This document shows positions 4,896-63,195 of a DNA stretch of 64,000 nucleotides, one piece after another. Made by a program: the position numbers and the translations under genes. Numbering within the stretch: the stretch's first letter is position 1; every line of letters begins with the position of its first letter. The stretch comes from Candidatus Saccharimonadota bacterium (GTDB lineage: Bacteria > Patescibacteriota > Saccharimonadia > Saccharimonadales > Saccharimonadaceae): NCBI GenBank assembly GCA_017512175.1, contig JAFWHA010000017.1, positions 1 through 64,000 of the forward strand, written 5' to 3'. Below the pieces are notes generated by a model that saw only the letters and a program-made list of their open reading frames with translations, made no database searches and was not told the DNA's origin.

Positions 4896-6734
4896 TTACA
4901 TCTCTTCCGGTATACTAATTCCGAGTAGCCCTAAGCCATGTTCCATGACGTTAAGGTAACCTTTAACAATATTTCTTCGTTCGAGCTCAAAATTACTACC
5001 GTTGACTTTAATTTTCTCGTAAAATCTGGAAAAGTTTTGCGCTAGATCGAATAAATAATTCGCAATTTTGTGCGGAGCCAATTCGGTAGTAGCTTCTCTT
5101 AATACGTCTTGATACTGGGCTAGTTGTTTGATGAGCTCCTTTTCTGCAGGTTGCAAAACCCAATTATCGTCTTGAGATGATTGAAAATTGTCGGGCTGGG
5201 CAGATTCCTGGCTAGAGTGAGCGGATTTTTCTTGTTGAACATAATGGGAATCGTGTTCTGCTGGGGATGGAATCTCGAAATTACCACTTAGAATTTTCTT
5301 GGCGCGGACAGCAGAATATTGCAAATAGACTCCGGAATTTCCAGTGGTAGAAACACTTTCTTTGATATCAAAATCAAAATCGCCGCCGATTTTGTATTTT
5401 AGGAGTGCGTACTTAATCGCGCCCATGGCCACTTTTTCATCTGGGACTAAGGCAAAAACTGCATTTAGTACATCTACAGCTTTGATGAAGTTGCCTTTTC
5501 TGGAGGACATCTTTTCGTTACCGGGAAGCTTGACATTGCCATGCGTGATATGTAAAGTTCTTTCGCTCAGCTCTGGAGCGTAAAGTGAGACTGATTTTAG
5601 AACTACTTTCATGTATTCGATAATGTCGTTTCCAGTAATGACTACAGATTTGTCAAAATGGTAGTCATCCCATTTAGTAAATAATAGTCCGACGTCTTTC
5701 GCTTCGTAGGTAGGTAGGCCTTCTTTATTAATAAACACTCGAGTATGCAAGCCGTATCTTTCGCCAACGAAGATTATAGCACCATCGCTTTCTTCGTATA
5801 CCGTCTGGGTGTGGGCTTGGACCTCTGCAAGACCTCGCCTTGCAACGGTAGATTCTGGATAGTAACGATCAAATTTTACTCCTAGCCGGGTGTAGAAATC
5901 GTCAAAATAACGGTATGATAACTCCCTGCCAGTCCAATATAGGTCTGCTAGGTCCGTATCTCTAATGTCGTTTTCGGCGATAGCATAGATAGATTTGTTC
6001 AGCTCGGTAATTTCCGCTTTGGCTTGACCATCATCTTCGTAGGCACGAGTTCCTTCAACATAATTCTTAGCGATAATTTCTACGCGCTTAGCAATTTCTG
6101 CGGGAGAAATAGTTTCGTCGCCATTGTCATCTCTCGGTCTCAAATCTTTTGCAGAGACCCCGTTCTTTTGCAGAGCGTAAATAGTCTTCGCGACATGGAG
6201 TCCGACATCACCACCGAAGTTTGCTCGGATAACTTTGCCGCCAGCGTTTTCTATTAATTTGGAAATACTATCTCCCATGATAGAGGTGTAGAGATGACCG
6301 ACATGAAGCACCTTGAATGGATTAGGATCAGAAAATTCACAGATAATAGTTTGTCTGTTATAATCGTCTAGTGATATATTTTCGGCAAAGTTAGTAGTTA
6401 ATTCGGCTAATTTATGCTTCCAATATTCATTTCGTGATATAAAATTCAGGAAACCTGGACCGGCAATTTCGATATCGAAGGGGAAAATAGTAGCAGTGTT
6501 GGTGATTTCCTGCTTCAGGCTGGTGGCGATTTCTCTAGGAGAGTAGGCCGATTCGTCCGGCTTAGTAATTCCCTGCGCTTTCAGAATGCCGGAAAGCTTC
6601 AAAGCGATATTCGAAGCATAGTCGGCATTAGCGTTCTCTGGAGCTAAAGTTACTTCGATATTTAGCGTGTCAGCTATTTCGGTACCAAAAAGATTGGCAA
6701 TTGCTTGTAAAACTCTATTTCTGATTTCTTCCAT
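4896..6734 (-). CDS. argS: arginyl-tRNA synthetase
   Basis: Class I synthetase charging tRNA-Arg. The N-terminal additional domain covers about residues 1-110, the HIGH-type motif is HVGH near 144, and the KMSKS-type loop reads KMSSR near 415. The C-terminal anticodon-binding domain ends in GISIPEEM. A polar Ser/Gln-rich insertion of roughly 30 residues (around HDSHYVQQEKSAHSSQ) precedes that domain, which makes the protein 612 aa. There is no ribosome site: a TAAAAT box (42-47 of the 6.7-kb hundred, i.e. 6742-6747) with an upstream TG lies seven bases before the ATG, so transcription should start at or next to the start codon. It heads the minus-strand run ending in polA. Confidence 0.96.
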   Translation of the reverse strand: MEEIRNRVLQAIANLFGTEIADTLNIEVTLAPENANADYASNIALKLSGILKAQGITKPDESAYSPREIATSLKQEITNTATIFPFDIEIAGPGFLNFISRNEYWKHKLAELTTNFAENISLDDYNRQTIICEFSDPNPFKVLHVGHLYTSIMGDSISKLIENAGGKVIRANFGGDVGLHVAKTIYALQKNGVSAKDLRPRDDNGDETISPAEIAKRVEIIAKNYVEGTRAYEDDGQAKAEITELNKSIYAIAENDIRDTDLADLYWTGRELSYRYFDDFYTRLGVKFDRYYPESTVARRGLAEVQAHTQTVYEESDGAIIFVGERYGLHTRVFINKEGLPTYEAKDVGLLFTKWDDYHFDKSVVITGNDIIEYMKVVLKSVSLYAPELSERTLHITHGNVKLPGNEKMSSRKGNFIKAVDVLNAVFALVPDEKVAMGAIKYALLKYKIGGDFDFDIKESVSTTGNSGVYLQYSAVRAKKILSGNFEIPSPAEHDSHYVQQEKSAHSSQESAQPDNFQSSQDDNWVLQPAEKELIKQLAQYQDVLREATTELAPHKIANYLFDLAQNFSRFYEKIKVNGSNFELERRNIVKGYLNVMEHGLGLLGISIPEEM

Positions 6735-29836: not shown

Positions 29837-29930
29837 GACGGAAATTTAGCATAGGAGCTGTGCGGGGAAGCTAAAGTTCTAGGATTAGTTTTGTGTGTTA
29901 TAATAGAGAAAAGGGTAATTGGAGATTTTG

Positions 29931-32663
29931 ATGAAATTTACGACTTCTTATGAGCCAGGGGAATTTGAGCCAGATATTTATGCTGCTTGGGAAGCGGCAG
30001 ATGAGTTTTTGCCTGGTGGCAAAGTAGGAGGAGATGGTAAATTATTCGATGAAGATCCAGACAATAATCCGAAAACTTATTCTATCGTGATGCCACCACC
30101 GAATGCTAATGGCAATCTCCACATTGGACATGGTCTTACTATCGCGATTGAGGATTCCTTGACTAGGTATCATAGACTACGTGGAGAAATGACTTGGTAT
30201 ATACCTGGTGCGGATCATGCAGGATTTGAAACTTGGGTAGTTTACGAGAGGGTGCTCGAGGCTAATAAACATACACGCTTCGAATACTCGCGTGACGAGC
30301 TATATGCACAGGTTTGGGACTTCGTGCAAGAGCAGCGTGGAAATATGGAGCTTCAGGTGCGGGCGCTGGGAGCTTCTTGTTCTTGGAAAGATTTGACTTT
30401 CACATTAGATGAAAACGTAGTGCGCAGAGTCTATGCGACTTTTGAAAAAATGTGGAATGATGGGATGATCTATAGAGGCGAAAAGCTAGTAAACTACTGC
30501 ACTAAGCATCAAACCGCATTCGCAGATATCGAAGTAGAGCACAAAGAAGAAAAAGGTAAACTTTGGGATATTGCTTATCCGTATGATGGTGGCGAAATCG
30601 TAGTATCTACTACCCGTCCAGAGACGCTTTTTGGCGACGTGGCGGTAGCAGTAAACCCGGAAGATACTCGTTATAAAAAAATGATTGGCAAAACTGTGCG
30701 TCTGCCACTAACAGATAGAAATATACCCGTAATCGCAGACGAGCACGCTGATCCTGAATATGGTACTGGCGCAGTAAAAATCACTCCGGCGCACGATAAT
30801 GATGACTTTGAGGTAGGCGAAAGACATAATTTGCCTCGAATTCAGGTAATTGGCTTCGATGGAAAAATGTTACCGATTTGTGGAGAAGAATATGCCGGAC
30901 TTGACACTGCCGAATGTCGCAAAAAAGTCTTGCATGACTTAAAAGAGGCAGGACTTCTACGCGGCGAAAAGAAGATCGTGCACGCAGTAGCGCATTGTTA
31001 TAAATGCGACACAGTAATAGAGCCGATGCTAAAAGAGCAGTGGTTTATTGACGTTAAGAAGCTAGCGAAGATAGCAATAGAACATCTAGAAGCGGGAGAA
31101 ATTGAGTTCTTCCCTGCTTCCAAGAAGCAAGTACTAATCAACTACTTGAAGGGCTTGAAAGATTGGAATATCTCTAGACAGATTCCTTGGGGGATTGCGA
31201 TTCCGATGTTTCGCAAAGTAGACAGCGATGAATGGATTTTTGATTCAAGAACGAATCTATCCGAGATTGAGATTGGTGGCGTGAGATATGTGAGAGATGA
31301 AGATACTTTTGACACTTGGTTTTCTTCTTCTCATTGGCCAATCGTCTGTACTAACTGGGAGGAGGGCGTAGTCAACCCTTATTATCCGCTAAACGTGATG
31401 GAAACAGGTGCGGACATATTGTTTGCTTGGGTGGCACGAATGATTATGATGGGGCTATATGTTACTGGCGAAGTACCGTTCAAGCAAGTGTACCTACATG
31501 GCTTAGTGCTAGATGCGCACGGACAGAAAATGAGTAAGTCTAAGGGGAATGTGATTAACCCGATGGATTTAGTGGCCAAATACGGATCCGATGCGTTTAG
31601 GTTGGGTATTCTGAGAGGTCGTTCTGCTGGCATGAATCAAGCTTTCTCTGAACAATCGGCAGTAGCTGGTCGTAATTTATGCAATAAATTATGGAATGTG
31701 TCAAGGTTTATTCAAGAGATAGTCGATAATGAAGCTTCTGCTCCAGAAGACGCTACAGATGAGCAGACCGTTTCTTCTGGAACGCCTTCGTCCGCGAAAA
31801 GTAAAGGGCTGAAGCCCGTTGACTTTTCGCTGGGACTCCGGGATATTGTTCCAGAAGAAAGGTCCGACTCATCCACTTATACTACTGATAATATGGGTGA
31901 AGATTGGATATGCAGAGAAATCAACGAAGCTAGGTGGCAAGTTGAAAAGCAGATGAAAAACTATCGTTTTTCCGAAGCGGTGGAGACATTACATAGCTTA
32001 ATCTGGGATAAATACGCAGACTGGTTCATTGAGAGCCAAAAGCTTTACAAGAATACTGGTCTACTAATGACGACACTTGAGGCAATTTTAAAAATGCTAC
32101 ATCCTTTTGCGCCGTTCGTGACGGAAGCGATTTGGCAGAATCTATCTTGGACTGATGGGCTTTTAATTTCTGCAAATTGGCCGTCTGACTTTAAATTTGA
32201 CCCTATGAGCGCTGAAGAATTTGAAAAGCTTATGAATATCGTATCCCACACTAGAAGCACCTTACAGGGCCTCTCAGAAGCTTACAAAGGCTTTTCTCGT
32301 GCGGATACTACCCTACTTTATGGCGACGATACACTTATTGATGACAATTCCCTTCTAGTGCAATATCTAACCCGCGTGAAATCTGTGATCTCTGCTGAAG
32401 GCGAGCCAAGAGGACTAAGACTAGCGGTGGCAAATAGTGAAGTCTACTTAGATGTTTCTTCTGAAGTAGTTTCCGCCTATGCCGATAGTTTGGAGAAAAA
32501 GATTCTGAAAGTTGGTGCAGAACTGGATAGCCTAAATATGCGAATGATGAATCCGAATTATGTTGACAAAGCTCCAGCGGAGTTGGTTAAAGAGACTCAA
32601 GATTTAATCGCAGAGAAACAAGGGTTAATCGAGCGTTTGAAGGCTGAAAGGGCGGCGATTTAA
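29931..32663 (+). CDS. valS: valyl-tRNA synthetase with an in-frame hairpin-element insertion
   Basis: Class I synthetase of 910 aa: PPPNANGNLHIGHGL (HIGH) near 40, the editing domain with STTRPETLFGDVAVAVNP, and KMSKSKGNVINP near 530. An ATG at 29931 follows GGAG at good spacing; an upstream TTG would add four residues. Around residues 614-643 a 30-codon insertion (31771-31860) forms a nested hairpin and encodes AKSKGLKPVDFSLGLRDIV; the same element occurs between genes at 60.8 kb. The insertion lies between the catalytic and anticodon-binding domains, in a linker that seems to tolerate it. The C-terminal helix pair is the usual ValS coiled coil. Confidence 0.96.
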   Translation: MKFTTSYEPGEFEPDIYAAWEAADEFLPGGKVGGDGKLFDEDPDNNPKTYSIVMPPPNANGNLHIGHGLTIAIEDSLTRYHRLRGEMTWYIPGADHAGFETWVVYERVLEANKHTRFEYSRDELYAQVWDFVQEQRGNMELQVRALGASCSWKDLTFTLDENVVRRVYATFEKMWNDGMIYRGEKLVNYCTKHQTAFADIEVEHKEEKGKLWDIAYPYDGGEIVVSTTRPETLFGDVAVAVNPEDTRYKKMIGKTVRLPLTDRNIPVIADEHADPEYGTGAVKITPAHDNDDFEVGERHNLPRIQVIGFDGKMLPICGEEYAGLDTAECRKKVLHDLKEAGLLRGEKKIVHAVAHCYKCDTVIEPMLKEQWFIDVKKLAKIAIEHLEAGEIEFFPASKKQVLINYLKGLKDWNISRQIPWGIAIPMFRKVDSDEWIFDSRTNLSEIEIGGVRYVRDEDTFDTWFSSSHWPIVCTNWEEGVVNPYYPLNVMETGADILFAWVARMIMMGLYVTGEVPFKQVYLHGLVLDAHGQKMSKSKGNVINPMDLVAKYGSDAFRLGILRGRSAGMNQAFSEQSAVAGRNLCNKLWNVSRFIQEIVDNEASAPEDATDEQTVSSGTPSSAKSKGLKPVDFSLGLRDIVPEERSDSSTYTTDNMGEDWICREINEARWQVEKQMKNYRFSEAVETLHSLIWDKYADWFIESQKLYKNTGLLMTTLEAILKMLHPFAPFVTEAIWQNLSWTDGLLISANWPSDFKFDPMSAEEFEKLMNIVSHTRSTLQGLSEAYKGFSRADTTLLYGDDTLIDDNSLLVQYLTRVKSVISAEGEPRGLRLAVANSEVYLDVSSEVVSAYADSLEKKILKVGAELDSLNMRMMNPNYVDKAPAELVKETQDLIAEKQGLIERLKAERAAI
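31771..31860. repeat. hairpin repeat element, copy 1 (inside valS)
   Basis: Outer stem TTTCTTCTGGAAC/GTTCCAGAAGAAA, inner stem GCGAAAAGT/ACTTTTCGC, apical stem GGGCT/AGCCC. The 64-65 nt between the outer arms match the copy at 60820-60882 position by position: GCCTTCG, AAAAGTAAA, GTTGACTTTT and CGGGATATTG are identical and the stem bases change in pairs. Length 90 bp, a multiple of three, so valS stays in frame. Confidence 0.8.
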
Positions 32664-57086: not shown

Positions 57087-57815
57087 ATGAAAAAGAAAAT
57101 ATTTAGCGTAGTTATGATATTGACAATGGTGGCTAGTTTCTTAGCACCATTTTTGACTTTAAATAATGCTTTTGCGGTCGACCTTGAATATTATTGTACT
57201 GGGACATTGCATGGACATTACCGAGATGGAATTTGTACGGTGCCAGATTCCTACGCACAGAAGTGTGCTGAAGATGGTGGCCAATATAATGGCTCTGGTG
57301 GGTGTATTTATAGATTAAGTCCTAGTGAGGATTCTAGCTCGTATAATGATGGCACAGAAGACCATGGCACAAATAGCTCAACTTATGATACCAGCAATGA
57401 TAGTAGTCAAAATAGTCGTCAGTCTGGCTCTAGTACCTCGGAAAGTTCAAACGCAACGACTGTAGGTGAGTTGTCTACTCCGGAAAATTTATACAATAAA
57501 AAACCATGTGGAGAAGGGCAAGTTTATACAAGCATACTCGGAGGCGAAGGCTGTCAAGATGTAGGTGAGCAAGGGGAGGGAATTTTTAAGATTTTGAACA
57601 TTGTGCTTACTGTACTAACCTACGGCGTAGGTATCGCGGGAACATTAGGAATCGTGATTTCTGGGGTACAGTATCTAACCGCGAGGGATAACGAAGCGCA
57701 GTTAGTGAAAGCTAAGAGCAGATTAATTAATATCGTGATTGGTTTGGCAGCTTATGCAGTGATGTGGGGATTCTTGCAGTGGATTATTCCTGGCGGAATT
57801 TTGAACGGCAATTAG
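57087..57815 (+). CDS. secreted protein with C-terminal VirB2-like helices
   Basis: A 242-aa protein: signal peptide 1-31 (SVVMILTMVASFLAPFLTLN), a Cys-containing middle (YCTGTLHGHYRDGICTVPDS), a Ser/Asn-rich linker, then two helices GIFKILNIVLTVLTYGVGIA and a second ending LAAYAVMWGFLQWIIPGG. The helix-loop-helix with SGVQYLTARDNEAQLVKAK between matches the other VirB2-like proteins here. AGGAGG site, 17 bp after rpoD. Possibly a modified pilin or surface subunit. Confidence 0.75.
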   Translation: MKKKIFSVVMILTMVASFLAPFLTLNNAFAVDLEYYCTGTLHGHYRDGICTVPDSYAQKCAEDGGQYNGSGGCIYRLSPSEDSSSYNDGTEDHGTNSSTYDTSNDSSQNSRQSGSSTSESSNATTVGELSTPENLYNKKPCGEGQVYTSILGGEGCQDVGEQGEGIFKILNIVLTVLTYGVGIAGTLGIVISGVQYLTARDNEAQLVKAKSRLINIVIGLAAYAVMWGFLQWIIPGGILNGN

Positions 57816-57818
57816 AAA

Positions 57819-58865
57819 ATGCAAAGATTAATAATCGTTTATAATCCTCATTCTTCCAAACACACCAGGATAGAGCAGGAGGTAGTTGCTCCAGCTAGGG
57901 AACTTAAAGGTTTTTCTATCGGTAGATTCGAAGTAAAGAAGGCACCTTTAGATGAGAATGCGAAGAGACTGGCGAGAGTATTACTAGATGGAGATTTAGT
58001 AGTAGCGGCTGGAGGAGATGGAACTGGCTCGATGGCGCTAAACGGAATTATTGAATCTGGAAAAGATGTCGTACTGGCAGTACTGGGGTACGGGAATTTT
58101 AACGATTTTTCGAGGACGCTGGGATATAAAAAGCTGGAAGAAATCGTAGCTGATTATAAATCATCTCAGGCGAGTGGAAACAAAGTCAAAAATGTATCCT
58201 ATAGAGATGCTCGCCATGCGAAACCAAGTCCTTCTCATATCCAAGAACTATATCCGTTGGAGGCTCTAGTGGATGGAGAACATTATCGCTACTCGGCTTG
58301 TTATTTTACGGTAGGGATGTTTGCCGAGAGTACGGAGATTTTTGACAAGGAAAAATTGCGAAAGACCTTAAAATCCGGAAAAAAGAGTTTGGCATTTTCG
58401 ATACTACAACTTGCGAAATGGTATTTTAGAAATCGGCACCGAGAGTTTTTGCCTAGACTAATGATGGTTGATGGGAAAAAGATTAAAGAAAATGATACAG
58501 CAGAACTTTCGGGTGCGGAGGAGCTGGAATATACAAAATTGAACACTAAGAAGCAGATTTCTGATCTAATTTTTGTGAATGGGAAAACGGTCGCGAAAGT
58601 GATACGAGGTGGAGAATGGTGGAAAGACAAACGCGATTTCTGGTTTGCAAGCGGAAGGCTGACGAGTTTTCCGAGACTGATTGCTTTTATGGTAAAGAGC
58701 ATCTTTCATAGGATGCCAGGAAAAGTTTCTTTTAGCGATGTGACAGCTAAGTTTGATGGGGAACAAGAAATAGAGATTCAGGGGGAGGGGGAATATAGAA
58801 AAGTTACAGCCTCGACGTTGACCGTGAGAAAATCAGATAAAGCTGTTAGAGTAATGAAAAAATAA
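57819..58865 (+). CDS. diacylglycerol kinase-family lipid kinase
   Basis: A 348-aa protein with the DAGK catalytic fold: LIIVYNPHSSKHTRIEQEVV at the start, the nucleotide-binding VVAAGGDGTGSMALNGII near 70, and LGYGNFNDFSRTLG in place of the usual GTxNDFAR. The second domain is beta-rich. Members phosphorylate diacylglycerol, undecaprenol or sphingoid lipids; the substrate cannot be told. Starts three bases after the preceding gene's stop, so co-transcribed. Confidence 0.88.
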   Translation: MQRLIIVYNPHSSKHTRIEQEVVAPARELKGFSIGRFEVKKAPLDENAKRLARVLLDGDLVVAAGGDGTGSMALNGIIESGKDVVLAVLGYGNFNDFSRTLGYKKLEEIVADYKSSQASGNKVKNVSYRDARHAKPSPSHIQELYPLEALVDGEHYRYSACYFTVGMFAESTEIFDKEKLRKTLKSGKKSLAFSILQLAKWYFRNRHREFLPRLMMVDGKKIKENDTAELSGAEELEYTKLNTKKQISDLIFVNGKTVAKVIRGGEWWKDKRDFWFASGRLTSFPRLIAFMVKSIFHRMPGKVSFSDVTAKFDGEQEIEIQGEGEYRKVTASTLTVRKSDKAVRVMKK

Positions 58866-59036
58866 AGTAGTAATAGCTAGTGTGGCAACTAATAAATAAA
58901 AGTTATGAATGATAGCAATATGCCTACTGAAATTACTCTACAGATTAAGATTTAGAACAGACTTAGTAGAATCTAACTCTTTACGGTTTTTTAATTTTTT
59001 TGTATAATATTTATAAATAACTGCGAGAAATATCAA

Positions 59037-59477
59037 ATGAATAAAATCATTAAAACATCTGTTCAAATTCTGACTGGAGTTGCTGCTATAGCGACACTAA
59101 CTGCGGGTAGGGCAATGGCTATTTCAGTGCAGCAGGGAGCTGAAGCGGCCAGAGCTGAAGGAATGCCAAGAGAGCTGATTGGACCGAATGGAGTATTTAC
59201 TCAGATTACTAATACCGTATTATATATAGTGGGTATTATTTCTGTGATTATGTTAATCTATGGCGGTCTTCGTTATGTGATTTCTGGTGGAGATAGTAAG
59301 AAAGTAACTGATGCAAAAAATACTATCCTTTATGCGATTATTGGTTTAATCGTGTCTATCTTAGCATTTGCGATTGTCAACTTCGTGATTAACGCTATTA
59401 CTGGCGAAAGTAATTCTGCGGCGAACGTAAATCCGGAACAGAGTCAGGAAAGTTCTCAAGAACAGCAGAGTCAGTAA
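59037..59477 (+). CDS. VirB2/TrbC-like pilin-type protein
   Basis: A 146-aa protein: signal peptide 1-28 (SVQILTGVAAIATLTAGRAM), a short polar segment, then two helices NTVLYIVGIISVIMLIYGGL and YAIIGLIVSILAFAIVNFVI joined by RYVISGGDSKKVTDAKNTI. This helix-SGGDxKKVxxAKNTI-helix pattern is shared by five to six other genes here and is that of VirB2/TrbC-family pilins. Gln/Ser-rich tail. A TGTATAAT promoter lies about 30 bp upstream; converges on comF. Confidence 0.8.
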   Translation: MNKIIKTSVQILTGVAAIATLTAGRAMAISVQQGAEAARAEGMPRELIGPNGVFTQITNTVLYIVGIISVIMLIYGGLRYVISGGDSKKVTDAKNTILYAIIGLIVSILAFAIVNFVINAITGESNSAANVNPEQSQESSQEQQSQ

Positions 59478-59478
59478 A

Positions 59479-60165
59479 TCATCTAGGCGTAAGAATCACA
59501 GCTGAGGCGATATTAGTCGCCCCAGCTTTTTTCAGGACAGAAATAGCTGCTTCCATAGATGCACCAGTAGTCCAGACGTCATCAAGAAGAAGATAAGTCG
59601 ACTGAGGGTGAAGGAGCCATTTTTCTGAGATTTGGTAGGCGGAAGCAGCCTGAAGCTTCCTAGTCTTTTCGTCGGCGCCAACTTGAACGGTGTTTTTGTT
59701 TCGTACTAGAGCTTGTTCGACCTTCCATTTCCTAATCAAACTAAGTTCTTTGGCAATGAGGAGCATATGATCAAAACCGCGCTCTCTAATATGCTTTGGG
59801 ATAGTAGGGAGGGGAATGATGGAAACATCATAGCTGTCTGATTCAGAGGGGAAATCTTCTGGAATGGCTAGGTTTAGCAGCTCTGCTAGAGCGCTAGCAG
59901 CAGCCCTTATGGAATGGTACTTATATTCTTCCACTAGGTCTTTCATTAAGCCTTCGCGATAAAATGCAGAATAAACCGGAGTCTTACAGCAGCAACTGGA
60001 AATTGGTTTCTTGCATCTAGCACACATTTTTAAAATTGACTTGCTGTTGTATTTTTTACAACGTTCACACATGATATTTCCGAGAGCACCACAACCCCTA
60101 CAAGAGTGGGGAGCGATTAGGTCTAAAATGCTTATTCTTGTTGTAATTTTTACATCAAAACCCAT
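59479..60165 (-). CDS. comF: ComF-family phosphoribosyltransferase-like competence protein
   Basis: A 228-aa protein with an N-terminal zinc-ribbon region (HSCRGCGALGNIMCERCKK, then CARCKKPISSCCCKTP) and a C-terminal PRTase domain (IPLPTIPKHIRERGFDHM and the PRPP loop YLLLDDVWTTGAS). ComF proteins act in DNA uptake, probably with the helicase/ATPase ComFA. The start at 60165 (MGFDVKITT) follows a TGGTAAAAT box by ten bases; a longer reading from 60213 would begin upstream of it. Divergent to hsp20 with overlapping promoters. Confidence 0.92.
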   Translation of the reverse strand: MGFDVKITTRISILDLIAPHSCRGCGALGNIMCERCKKYNSKSILKMCARCKKPISSCCCKTPVYSAFYREGLMKDLVEEYKYHSIRAAASALAELLNLAIPEDFPSESDSYDVSIIPLPTIPKHIRERGFDHMLLIAKELSLIRKWKVEQALVRNKNTVQVGADEKTRKLQAASAYQISEKWLLHPQSTYLLLDDVWTTGASMEAAISVLKKAGATNIASAVILTPR

Positions 60166-60172
60166 ATTTCTC

Positions 60173-60201
60173 TTGATTTTACCAAAAAAACGATTTATAA
60201 T
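60173..60201 (+). promoter_or_regulatory. hsp20 promoter overlapping the comF promoter
   Basis: Plus strand TTGATT (60173-60178), 17 bp, TATAAT (60196-60201) for hsp20. The comF -10 (TAAAAT on the minus strand, 60176-60181) overlaps the hsp20 -35, so the two should compete. Confidence 0.75.
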
Positions 60202-60231
60202 AAAGCATAACAATAACTATGTGGAGGTACA

Positions 60232-60720
60232 ATGGCTCGTAACAACAACGACGACATGCTGATGGAAGACGAATTAGCCGCCGCCTTTTTGGACGACAGC
60301 AATCCTGCTGCACCTGCTACGGAAGAACCTGCAGATGTAGTCGAGGAAGCACCATCAGACGATGATGGGTGGGACAACGCCGACGAATTTCCAGGACAGC
60401 TCGCTGTAGATGTCTACGAAACCGCCGACAAATTAGTAGTAAAGGCTCGCACGGCTGGCATTTCTAAGTCAGACCTTGATGTGAGCATATCTGATAACAT
60501 TTTGACCATCTCTGGCGTCTTATCTGGTGGTGAAGATGAACATACCACTCGTTGGCACATCCAAGAGTGTTATTGGGGTGAGTTTTCTCGTACTATTGCA
60601 TTGCCAGTACAAGTTAGAGAAGACGAGAACAGCGTAAAAGCTGAGCTTAAAGACGGTGTACTTACTATTACTTTTGAGAAGGAAAAGGTAGAAGCACCAA
60701 AGAAAATCCAGATTCAATAA
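60232..60720 (+). CDS. small heat-shock protein (Hsp20)
   Basis: A 162-aa alpha-crystallin-domain chaperone. The N-terminal 55 residues are acidic and disordered (AAPATEEPADVVEEAPSDDD). The crystallin domain runs from GQLAVDVYETADKLVVKART through ISDNILTISGVLSGG to LKDGVLTITFEKEK, with the A-x-x-x-D-G-V-L-x-I signature. The C-terminal KKIQIQ is the I-x-I anchor. TGGAGG site. Holds unfolded proteins; no CIRCE is seen here. Confidence 0.93.
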   Translation: MARNNNDDMLMEDELAAAFLDDSNPAAPATEEPADVVEEAPSDDDGWDNADEFPGQLAVDVYETADKLVVKARTAGISKSDLDVSISDNILTISGVLSGGEDEHTTRWHIQECYWGEFSRTIALPVQVREDENSVKAELKDGVLTITFEKEKVEAPKKIQIQ

Positions 60721-60740
60721 TCTGGTATTCACCTAGAATT

Positions 60741-60772
60741 AAATCCCCCTCGAGACTTCGAGGGGGATTTTT
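60741..60772 (+). terminator. hsp20 terminator
   Basis: AAATCCCCCTCGA-GACT-TCGAGGGGGATTTTT hairpin about 20 bp after the stop. Confidence 0.95.
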
Positions 60773-60791
60773 GATAACGCGTGAAACTGTG

Positions 60792-60910
60792 TGCCAGTAA
60801 TACCTAACCTTATAGGACAGCCTTCGCGCGCCAAAAGTAAAGTCCTAAAGGACGTTGACTTTTGGCTGGCGCTACGGGATATTGTCCTATAAGGTTAGGT
60901 ATTACTGGCA
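60792..60910. repeat. hairpin repeat element, copy 2 (intergenic)
   Basis: A 28-bp perfect outer stem (TGCCAGTAATACCTAACCTT... arms 60792-60819 and 60883-60910) encloses the same core as the insertion in valS: GCCTTCG, stem GCCAAAAGT/ACTTTTGGC, apical stem GTCC/GGAC, CGGGATATTG. Read in the valS frame it encodes AKSKVLKDVDFWLALRDIV. The outer arms are unrelated to those in valS, so each copy has its own flanking inverted repeat. No gene is visible in 60773-60985. Confidence 0.8.
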
Positions 60911-60985
60911 TAGACTAGTACTAAAGGGAAATTACACCTTGCAAAAAGATATCATAGTATAGGCTAGGTGGCTTAATTAAAAGTC

Positions 60986-61396
60986 CTACTTTGTTCCGCC
61001 CCAGATATTGCTTAAGACGAAGTTGACGATAGCGAAAGCGAGAAGCGCGACTACGAGGCCGATAACTCCGTACAAAATGGTGTTTTTGGCTTTTTGAACT
61101 TTAGATGCATCGCCATTAGACGTAGTGTAGGTAACACCGCCGATAATAATCATAATAACAGCTACGATGCCTAAGACGGAAAGAGCAACGTTAATAATGA
61201 TTTGAATCATTGGCATAAGGCCTTTGCCTTGTTCATCCTGCTTAACATTGCATTCTGCGAGTGTATTAGCGGACCCACGAATTGAGCCGGTGGGACATGA
61301 TACTGCTAGAGTTGGTTGAGCAACTGTAGCTGCCATCATGAAGACGGAGACTAAGCCAGCCGCCACGACTGCAAGTGTCTTTTTTATTTTGTTCAT
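60986..61396 (-). CDS. VirB2/TrbC-like pilin-type protein
   Basis: A 136-aa paralogue: signal peptide 1-31 (TLAVVAAGLVSVFMMAATVA), a Cys pair region (VSCPTGSIRGSANTLAECNV), then two helices with GGVTYTTSNGDASKVQKAKN between and YGVIGLVVALLAFAIVNFVL at the end. AAGGAGA site. Last of the minus-strand series 63195 to 60986, separated from the next by a terminator. Confidence 0.8.
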   Translation of the reverse strand: MNKIKKTLAVVAAGLVSVFMMAATVAQPTLAVSCPTGSIRGSANTLAECNVKQDEQGKGLMPMIQIIINVALSVLGIVAVIMIIIGGVTYTTSNGDASKVQKAKNTILYGVIGLVVALLAFAIVNFVLSNIWGGTK

Positions 61397-61508
61397 AAAA
61401 TCTCCTTAAAAAACTTAATTATTCTCATTATACCACATAACGGGGATATTGAAAGAATTTTAGTGAGGCCTTTGTAGGCTGAAGTTTCGCTCTAGCATTC
61501 GCACATAC

Positions 61509-61541
61509 AAAAAGCCCACCTCTTAGTATGGTGGGCTTTTA
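61509..61541 (-). terminator. terminator after the 61554 gene
   Basis: AAAAGCCCACC/GGTGGGCTTTT hairpin followed by T residues on the minus strand. Confidence 0.9.
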
Positions 61542-61553
61542 GATTATCTATTC

Positions 61554-61946
61554 CTATGAAGCGTTGAAGACGTTGGTTAGGATGAAGTTGACGATAGCGA
61601 AAGCGAGAAGCGCAATCACAAGACCAACTACACCATACATGATAGTGTTCTTTGCCTTCGTGACCTTGGCAGCATCACCAGAGGAAGTAGTATATTGAAT
61701 ACCACCCATGATGATCATAACAACGGCTACGAAACCAATAACACCGAGAGCGACGTTAATGATAAGGTTAAGAATGGACATAAGATCGCGGTCATCACCA
61801 GTAGCTGCCTGCTGTGCGGCAGAGCCTGTATACCTATTTGCTGGAGTTTCTGCGTTTACGGAAGGAGCTACCAAAGCGGATACTGCAAGTGTAGAAACTG
61901 CTGCTACTCCCATAGTTGCCATTTTGATTTTTTCTGCAATCTTCAT
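61554..61946 (-). CDS. VirB2/TrbC-like pilin-type protein
   Basis: A 130-aa paralogue: signal peptide 1-32 ending in NAE, short polar segment with GDDRDLMSI, then helix ILNLIINVALGVIGFVAVVM, loop GGIQYTTSSGDAAKVTKAKN and helix YGVVGLVIALLAFAIVNFIL. Very close to the 60986 protein over the second half. No cysteine pair in the polar segment. Confidence 0.8.
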   Translation of the reverse strand: MKIAEKIKMATMGVAAVSTLAVSALVAPSVNAETPANRYTGSAAQQAATGDDRDLMSILNLIINVALGVIGFVAVVMIIMGGIQYTTSSGDAAKVTKAKNTIMYGVVGLVIALLAFAIVNFILTNVFNAS

Positions 61947-62022
61947 AGAATATTTTTTCCCTTTAGATTATTTTAATCTTATTATACCACAAATTAAACT
62001 GCCTACAAGAGTTTTTTAATAA

Positions 62023-62451
62023 TTAATTAGTGCCACCAGAAGAGAATATTCCGCCCAAGACAAAGTTTACGATAGCGAAAGCTAAAACAGCGATAACTAG
62101 ACCTATCAGAGAATAGATAATCATATTCCTAGCGGCTTGAATCTTGCCAGGATCGCCATTACTGACGATGTATCTCTGGCCAGCTACTACAATCATGCCT
62201 ATAGCAATAATGCCAACGATTGAAATTACGACATTAATTAAGATTTGGATAACTTCTGGAGCTTGTTTGCTTTGGTTACAACCAAGAGCGGCTTTTTCTT
62301 GCTCGTCAGCATTAGCACAGGCTTCTCTGGTTAAGGCGTTTTCTGCAAAAGTGGGTTGGATAGAAAATACGTTTAGGAAGGAGCCAATGAGCAAAGCTGG
62401 GACGAACAACATTGCCGTAAATAGTTTTGCGAATTTGTTTACTGTTATCAT
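62023..62451 (-). CDS. VirB2/TrbC-like pilin-type protein
   Basis: A 142-aa paralogue: signal peptide 1-36, segment ACANADEQEKAALGCNQSKQ with a Cys pair, helix VIQILINVVISIVGIIAIGM, loop AGQRYIVSNGDPGKIQAARN and helix YSLIGLVIAVLAFAIVNFVL. Its ATG overlaps the stop of the 62448 gene by four bases, so the two are translationally coupled. Confidence 0.8.
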   Translation of the reverse strand: MITVNKFAKLFTAMLFVPALLIGSFLNVFSIQPTFAENALTREACANADEQEKAALGCNQSKQAPEVIQILINVVISIVGIIAIGMIVVAGQRYIVSNGDPGKIQAARNMIIYSLIGLVIAVLAFAIVNFVLGGIFSSGGTN

Positions 62452-62750
62452 TTTGTTGCTTCTCCTATTGCTCCAAAGACAAAGTTTACGATAGCGAAAG
62501 CTAGAGCGACAATCACTAACCCAATAATAGCATAGGCGATAATCTGGCTGGCTTGTTTAGTTTTGTCAGGCTGGCCTTGAGAAGTAAGATACTTAACAGC
62601 ACCATAAACTATCACGCCAACTGCAACAATACCGCCAGCGGCGAGTACCCAATTGATAATGTTGGTAAGACCGGTGGAAGTAGTGTCGCCTTTTGGTAAT
62701 TTGTCTAGGGCGGTAAGTTCGCCGGCTGCAAGTATTTCTAATATTTTCAT
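62448..62750 (-). CDS. short VirB2/TrbC-like protein without signal peptide
   Basis: A 100-aa paralogue that lacks the hydrophobic signal of its neighbours: MKILEILAAGELTALDKLPK leads into helix TNIINWVLAAGGIVAVGVIV, loop GAVKYLTSQGQPDKTKQASQ and helix YAIIGLVIVALAFAIVNFVF. It overlaps the downstream paralogue by 4 bp and follows the 62758 gene by 7 bp. Confidence 0.78.
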   Translation of the reverse strand: MKILEILAAGELTALDKLPKGDTTSTGLTNIINWVLAAGGIVAVGVIVYGAVKYLTSQGQPDKTKQASQIIAYAIIGLVIVALAFAIVNFVFGAIGEATK

Positions 62751-62757
62751 CCGTCTC

Positions 62758-63195
62758 CTAACTTATTGATAATACTGACGATATTGTGTTCATAATTACT
62801 CCGGCAAGAACGGCAATTAAGAGGCCTACTATCGCAGCGATAAGGGTCTTCTTGCCTTTTTCTGCACGGTCTGGTTGTCCTCTAGAAAACATATAAAGAT
62901 ACCCGCCCCAAGCGACCATAGCTACAGCAACGTAGCCGATTAATACGGAAATATCAAAGAGAATATTTAGGACTATCTTCCAAATCCAAGTGGCAAGTCC
63001 ACTGCCATCTTCTCCAACATCTGCAGGTTTGAGTTGGCCACCTTCACACATACCATGATACCAAGCTCTGAGGCCGAAGAATGAGCCCTCGCCACAATCA
63101 TCGGCGTATGCTGCTTGTGGCTTTGCGAGACTTAGGCTAGTAAGTCCGGCAAGCATCGTAATGATTATCAAAAGGTTTGCAAAAAACTTCTTCAT
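62758..63195 (-). CDS. VirB2/TrbC-like protein with Cys-containing segment
   Basis: A 145-aa protein: signal peptide 1-31 (LLIIITMLAGLTSLSLAKPQ), segment DDCGEGSFFGLRAWYHGMCE with two Cys, helix WIWKIVLNILFDISVLIGYV, loop GGYLYMFSRGQPDRAEKGKK and helix IVGLLIAVLAGVIMNTISSV. It heads the minus-strand run of paralogues; a TATCAT box six bases before the ATG hints at a leaderless start. Confidence 0.78.
   Translation of the reverse strand: MKKFFANLLIIITMLAGLTSLSLAKPQAAYADDCGEGSFFGLRAWYHGMCEGGQLKPADVGEDGSGLATWIWKIVLNILFDISVLIGYVAVAMVAWGGYLYMFSRGQPDRAEKGKKTLIAAIVGLLIAVLAGVIMNTISSVLSIS

Follow-up and report, generated by a model that had tools for sequence, protein, structure and literature searches.

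The locus

The window, that is, the whole stretch of 64,000 nucleotides analysed, comes from a genome of 612 kb (72% complete) and carries a long hairpin at 60792-60910, placed between a small heat-shock gene and a convergent gene of the T4SS-pilin family. A second copy of the element lies in valS. The features are as follows:

29919..32663, + strand, valS (valyl-tRNA synthetase), frame open through the inserted copy
31758..31873, + strand, second copy of the element, in valS, read in frame (arms 31758-31783 / 31848-31873)
60232..60720, + strand, hsp20, left neighbour of the element
60741..60770, + strand, terminator-like hairpin of hsp20 itself (13-bp perfect stem, 4-nt loop)
60792..60819, + strand, left outer arm, 28 nt, perfect inverted repeat; its final A is the junction with the core
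60820..60882, + strand, conserved core GCCTTCG..AAAAGTAAAG-hairpin-GTTGACTTTT..CGGGATATT
60825-60841 / 60855-60871, inner helix within the core
60842..60853, + strand, terminal hairpin GTCC-TAAA-GGAC, the stem bases of which covary among copies
60855..60883, + strand, promoter-like TTGACT-17-GATATT, predicted from the sequence
60883..60910, + strand, right outer arm, perfect inverted repeat
60986..61396, - strand, T4SS-pilin family gene, right neighbour of the element

A repeat search of the 64-kb window recovered the outer arms as complementary at every one of 28 positions (100%) and separated by 63 nt; the chance expectation for such a repeat is about 5e-10 per 64 kb. Folded as RNA, the hairpin reaches -80.1 kcal/mol (z -12.9; no shuffle was equally good), and the fold is stable on both strands of the element. 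An earlier note on this DNA had pointed out the perfect 28-bp stem, the position between convergent genes and the core held in common with valS, and each of these observations was borne out, the two cores being 80% identical. Its further statement that the arms bear no relation to those of the valS copy goes too far: the inner ~10 nt follow a common pattern, CTTnTnGGnnC, and free variation is confined to the outer part. The valS arms are 26 nt each and 81% complementary.

The segment of valS holding the copy (31720-31900) encodes a loop between the catalytic and the anticodon-binding domains which is very variable in length and sequence across the genus. Around the intergenic copy lie seven short ORFs of similar architecture (57087-63195); the one tested matched T4SS_pilin (PF18895), and the group looks like a pilin-like gene array surrounding the element.

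A repeat family of gut Saccharibacteria

Small palindromic repeats are known from many bacteria, and the genomes of Saccharibacteria are very small; in a literature search, a small palindromic repeat in this group was not reported, and the family is a small mobile repeat undescribed so far. Its first members, about a dozen true copies, were gathered with a pattern derived from the core; among the matches listed, copies with the full hairpin were all from Saccharibacteria, the other matches being mostly due to chance, and, likewise among the matches listed, the carriers with named records were Candidatus Saccharibacteria of ruminant guts. A covariance model with 14 copies as input matched 15 of the 174 genomes of the genus strongly (E<1e-8), and strong matches occurred in one of 61 genera of the taxonomic family. 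In total, about 85 copies are scattered through gut Saccharibacteria, with strong copies distributed unevenly: 37 in genome G109, 16 in G071, 10 in G102, 9 in G100, 3 in G036 and 2 in the genome of the window. An Rfam scan of the window returned tRNAs only, the element matching no family at gathering score. Collections of phages, plasmids and viral contigs contained zero matches to the element, and carriage by phage or plasmid was dropped as an explanation.

Both partners have changed, with pairing retained, in 18 of the 31 base pairs predicted from the aligned copies. The most conserved letters are AAAGTAAAG, GTTGAC and the CGGGATATTG region; the parts conserved are core positions that are unpaired and mismatched (AAAG/GTTG and the ATATT bulge) and the innermost bases of the arms. 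Most of the G109 copies (L155-L175) have about 24 additional nt in the terminal hairpin and make up a subfamily peculiar to that genome. One of the G071 copies is adjoined by a truncated half-copy (CTTTTTGCGAACGCAGGCAATCCAGAAACAA..., locus L178, about 986-1040), which suggests either nested insertion or decay through deletion. Weak model matches in G012 and G098 (L138, L139) were left out of the family; they read AAATAAAG-hairpin-TTTATTT, lie beside tRNA genes and are terminator-like, resembling the tip of the element.

Occupied and empty sites

The nearest relatives have no counterpart of the hairpin at 60792-60910 in this position. In the closest one, G032, the hsp20-pilin spacer is short and contains neither the element nor arm-like sequence, and valS has a loop shorter by about 42 residues. 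The cleanest case is found at L178 of G071, which has three copies that relatives lack: 116 nt at 6322-6437 stand against 3 nt (ATA) in G111, the stop codon on one side and the TGCTATAAT box on the other being shared by both genomes. G105, G136, G025, G057, G048 and others have empty sites for the remaining two L178 copies; so do G005, G070 and others for L208 of G100, and G142 for L198b of G102. The species with empty sites are 75-85% identical to the occupied ones, with junctions that are not base-exact, and most matches of the search for joined flanks were one-sided because two candidates were scored per genome.

At several loci both the core and the two arms are absent from the empty site, which implies that the element arrives whole and that its inverted repeat is not built from the target. 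This goes against the earlier note, which had proposed that the repeat is made at each site by foldback repair or by duplication of one flank, and had suggested comparing occupied and empty sites; in that comparison, run on species 75-85% identical, neither arm pre-exists. No target-site duplication and no TA end is visible in the 16 copies of G071 and the empty sites, the latter being from diverged species.

Ownership and paired drift of the arms

In G071 the fraction of Watson-Crick pairs is 0.75-1.00 over positions 1-26 and drops to 0.12 at position 27. At positions 18-26 the letters differ widely among the copies with pairing retained; nevertheless, a residual consensus is present there (z 7.0 in G071, 10.3 in G109, against letters shuffled inside each copy) which is gone at positions 27-40 (z 1.4 and -0.1, respectively). 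That consensus and pairing stop at the same place is expected if the arms are drifting element sequence, and, judged from the aligned copies, the arms are to be regarded as belonging to the element and as drifting; they are unlike each other between copies because they drift while remaining paired. In G102 the same outer arms occur at different loci: those of L198 and L201 are 100% alike and those of L198 and L199 94%, with differing loci and cores. Copies with outer arms in common were one of the outcomes that the earlier note had named as refuting its proposal. What stands of the earlier proposal is a shared mobile core present at many sites, each with a long inverted repeat of its own; the new creation of that repeat at each site does not.

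Paired change can be followed at single loci. Where G036 (L192) and G153 (L135) share a locus with clearly homologous coding flanks, the arms are 70% alike, and each arm pair has a single mismatch. In G071, 90 double changes were counted in the arms vs 18 mismatches; 40 of the 90 are of the transversion type and hence hard to attain via G-U intermediates, a figure that small indels not recognised could inflate. At a locus shared by G139 and G122 the core is inverted and the arms are retained, and at another (L205 of G100, L200 of G102) the arms are 96% alike but the cores only 74%; replacement of a core between retained arms suggests gene conversion between copies. Whether selection acts on RNA or on DNA was approached through wobble mismatches, counted by strand: per copy the ratio was 33 vs 13 (p 0.005), and after de-duplication 39 vs 28 (p 0.22). 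The acting strand is not significant by this count, and its assignment was dropped, significance being lost once duplicate events were removed.

Proposed mode of mobility

The element is probably a non-autonomous, MITE-like palindrome of roughly 116-120 bp which enters a site whole, multiplies, and then lets its arms drift in pairs, with a shape-reading enzyme supplied in trans. As the empty sites show, it inserts as a complete unit consisting of both ~26-bp arms and the core; the counts given above show that it multiplies inside a genome to as many as 37 copies, which with few exceptions lie in intergenic positions. Comparison of the copies shows that, once inserted, the element changes its outer arms fast with pairing kept. 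Two causes of this drift may be envisaged: template switching of DNA polymerase, which we infer from the sequences to copy changes from one arm to the other and at times to invert the core, and selection for the folded hairpin. It has been described that template switching homogenises the arms of inverted repeats and inverts the spacer (PMC8604942), and that it maintains hairpins (PMC8794818).

The trans-acting enzyme would read the folded shape and conserved bases of the core, not a fixed terminal sequence. Conservation of the core mismatches and of the innermost arm bases makes shape plus core bases the presumed target, and recognition by shape is plausible since the terminal letters are free and pairing and the unpaired core letters are kept. 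It is conceivable, if somewhat doubtful, that the ends themselves are read as shape, so that the terminal ~10 bp could have any sequence as long as they pair and a folded strand of one polarity (DNA or RNA) would be moved by the putative enzyme. If true, this rule of arms as shape would distinguish the element from MITEs and, in function, bring it closer to integron attC sites, where the likeness is recognition by shape and a functional analogy only; an undescribed mobilisation enzyme would also be implied.

Two enzyme families were searched for an autonomous partner (PF01797, PF00078), and none was found among them. Y1 transposases (PF01797) are present in 8 of 170 genomes of the genus, none of which is an element carrier; RAYT/Y1 transposase as the mobiliser was rejected, PF01797 and the element never co-occurring. 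Reverse transcriptases (PF00078, RVT_1) are common in the genus and unrelated to carriage of the element: G036 has its three copies with no match to RVT_1, on which ground this candidate was discarded as well, and many element-free genomes have RVT_1. Reverse-transcriptase domains were noted in G000 on contigs C11 (143477-143935) and C12 (35411-36103).

Placement and alternative explanations

Only the valS copy, of about 75 examined, lies in a long conserved gene; the others are nearly all intergenic, most of them no more than about 100 nt away from a gene end. For the copies L130, L172, L181, L183 and L187, a tRNA gene is found at a distance of about 100 nt or less. The neighbouring genes are arranged ++ in 14 cases, -- in 20, convergently in 14 and divergently in 12; orientation to genes is random, so that convergent gene ends are not preferred. 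The suggestion in the earlier note that the hairpin acts as a stop or processing signal for its two convergent neighbours found no support: besides the random orientation, hsp20 has the hairpin of its own at 60741-60770, and a terminator scan of the element gave no terminator-like call. Such a role between convergent genes was rejected, as neither orientation nor context is biased. The copy at 60792-60910, lying between hsp20 and the pilin gene, is most probably a neutral passenger.

A broader possibility is that the repeat is a structured RNA, or an RNA signal acting in cis as a processing site, stabiliser of mRNA or attenuator, which spread through its usefulness. The strong covariation, the fold stable on both strands and the closeness of most copies to gene ends would fit, as would the effects of ERIC and Correia elements on mRNA stability (PMC2229807, PMC10969869). 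Nevertheless we consider this unlikely, given the random orientation to genes, the patchy occurrence in 15 of 174 genomes at sites differing between them, the locus with the inverted core and the missing Rfam match.

Still less probable is that the core inserts alone and that one flank is copied across by foldback or template switching, the outer stem being made from the target. The outer ~9 nt of the G071 arms are nearly unrelated among copies, yet 81-100% Watson-Crick paired at positions 18-25, and the pairing of the second L178 copy extends into both flanking gene ends, as this scenario would have it. It fails to explain why the empty sites have neither arm, why the residual consensus across sites halts exactly where pairing halts, and why complete arms are common to some copies at different loci; derivation of the arms from the target is very unlikely. 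The least probable reading, that of a portable promoter (TTGACT-16/17-GAnAnT) driving the gene downstream of the core, can appeal to the recurrence, in 69 of 77 copies, of the spacing and of A2 and T6 in the second hexamer, to a TATAAT (-10-like) directly downstream of several copies and to the promoters carried by Correia elements (PMC10969869), but hardly survives a weak second hexamer (1 match found vs a mean of 0.7 by chance in the region), copies facing either way and a convergent downstream gene in the window.

Comparison with known palindromic elements

The mobile palindrome favoured here resembles in its working the MITE-like palindromes covered by two reviews, PMC2229807 and PMC10969869 (RPE, ERIC, Correia, YPAL), in size, dispersion, preference for intergenic sites, an occasional insertion in frame within a gene, inversion and promoter-like sequence, its behaviour being closest, as far as published descriptions allow, to the Rickettsia palindromic elements, ERIC and Correia. 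As in a MITE, a short non-coding unit of about 116-120 bp is found at multiple non-homologous sites, up to 37 per genome, and relatives have empty sites lacking the whole unit; the inverted repeats are present, but their terminal bases differ between copies, unlike the sequence-conserved terminal repeats usual for a MITE and shared there with an autonomous element.

The Rickettsia elements are dispersed long stem-loops of 100-150 bp, some of which reside in frame inside protein genes (PMC2229807). The element, compared with RPEs by description only, is likewise palindromic, within that size range and present in valS; it differs in that RPEs are frequent inside genes, a habit which the present family shows in one of about 75 copies, that in valS, and in that its outer arms vary freely while paired. 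ERIC and Correia/NEMIS are near-palindromic, mostly intergenic, multi-copy repeats of 107-155 bp, absent at empty sites; for Correia, inversion and the presence of promoter-like sequence have been described (PMC10969869). Size, intergenic bias, near-palindromy, multiple copies and empty sites are shared by the element; however, the terminal inverted repeats of ERIC and Correia/NEMIS are sequence-conserved, end in TA and come with duplication of the target (PMC2229807), whereas its terminal bases are free and neither a TA end nor a duplication was found. REPs moved by RAYT are also intergenic palindromes multiplied in trans, but measure 20-40 bp and depend on Y1 enzymes, and no PF01797 was found in the element carriers searched. 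Template-switch (quasipalindrome) mutation makes the arms of an inverted repeat alike and turns the spacer round (PMC8604942, PMC8794818), in agreement with the drifting arms and the inverted core seen here; it is a mutation process, however, and not an element family.

The family supplies natural occupied and empty sites, orthologous arms that change together, and inverted as well as swapped cores, and the respective shares of selection and template switching in keeping perfect stems as their sequence changes can be tested directly with it.

The YPAL/RU-2 repeat of Yersinia is a palindromic mobile repeat of about 168 bp which has no TA end and targets sites near dyad symmetry (PMC2229807); it makes target duplications of 3-26 bp, unlike the element, for which none was seen. 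At L178 (2470-2640) a copy lies between convergent genes, its arms providing the stop codons of both; the two flanking gene ends read TGGAGAG(C/T)TGAG, by which the inverted repeat is lengthened to 34 nt, and, judged from this copy, it is possible that sites with dyad symmetry are favoured for insertion.
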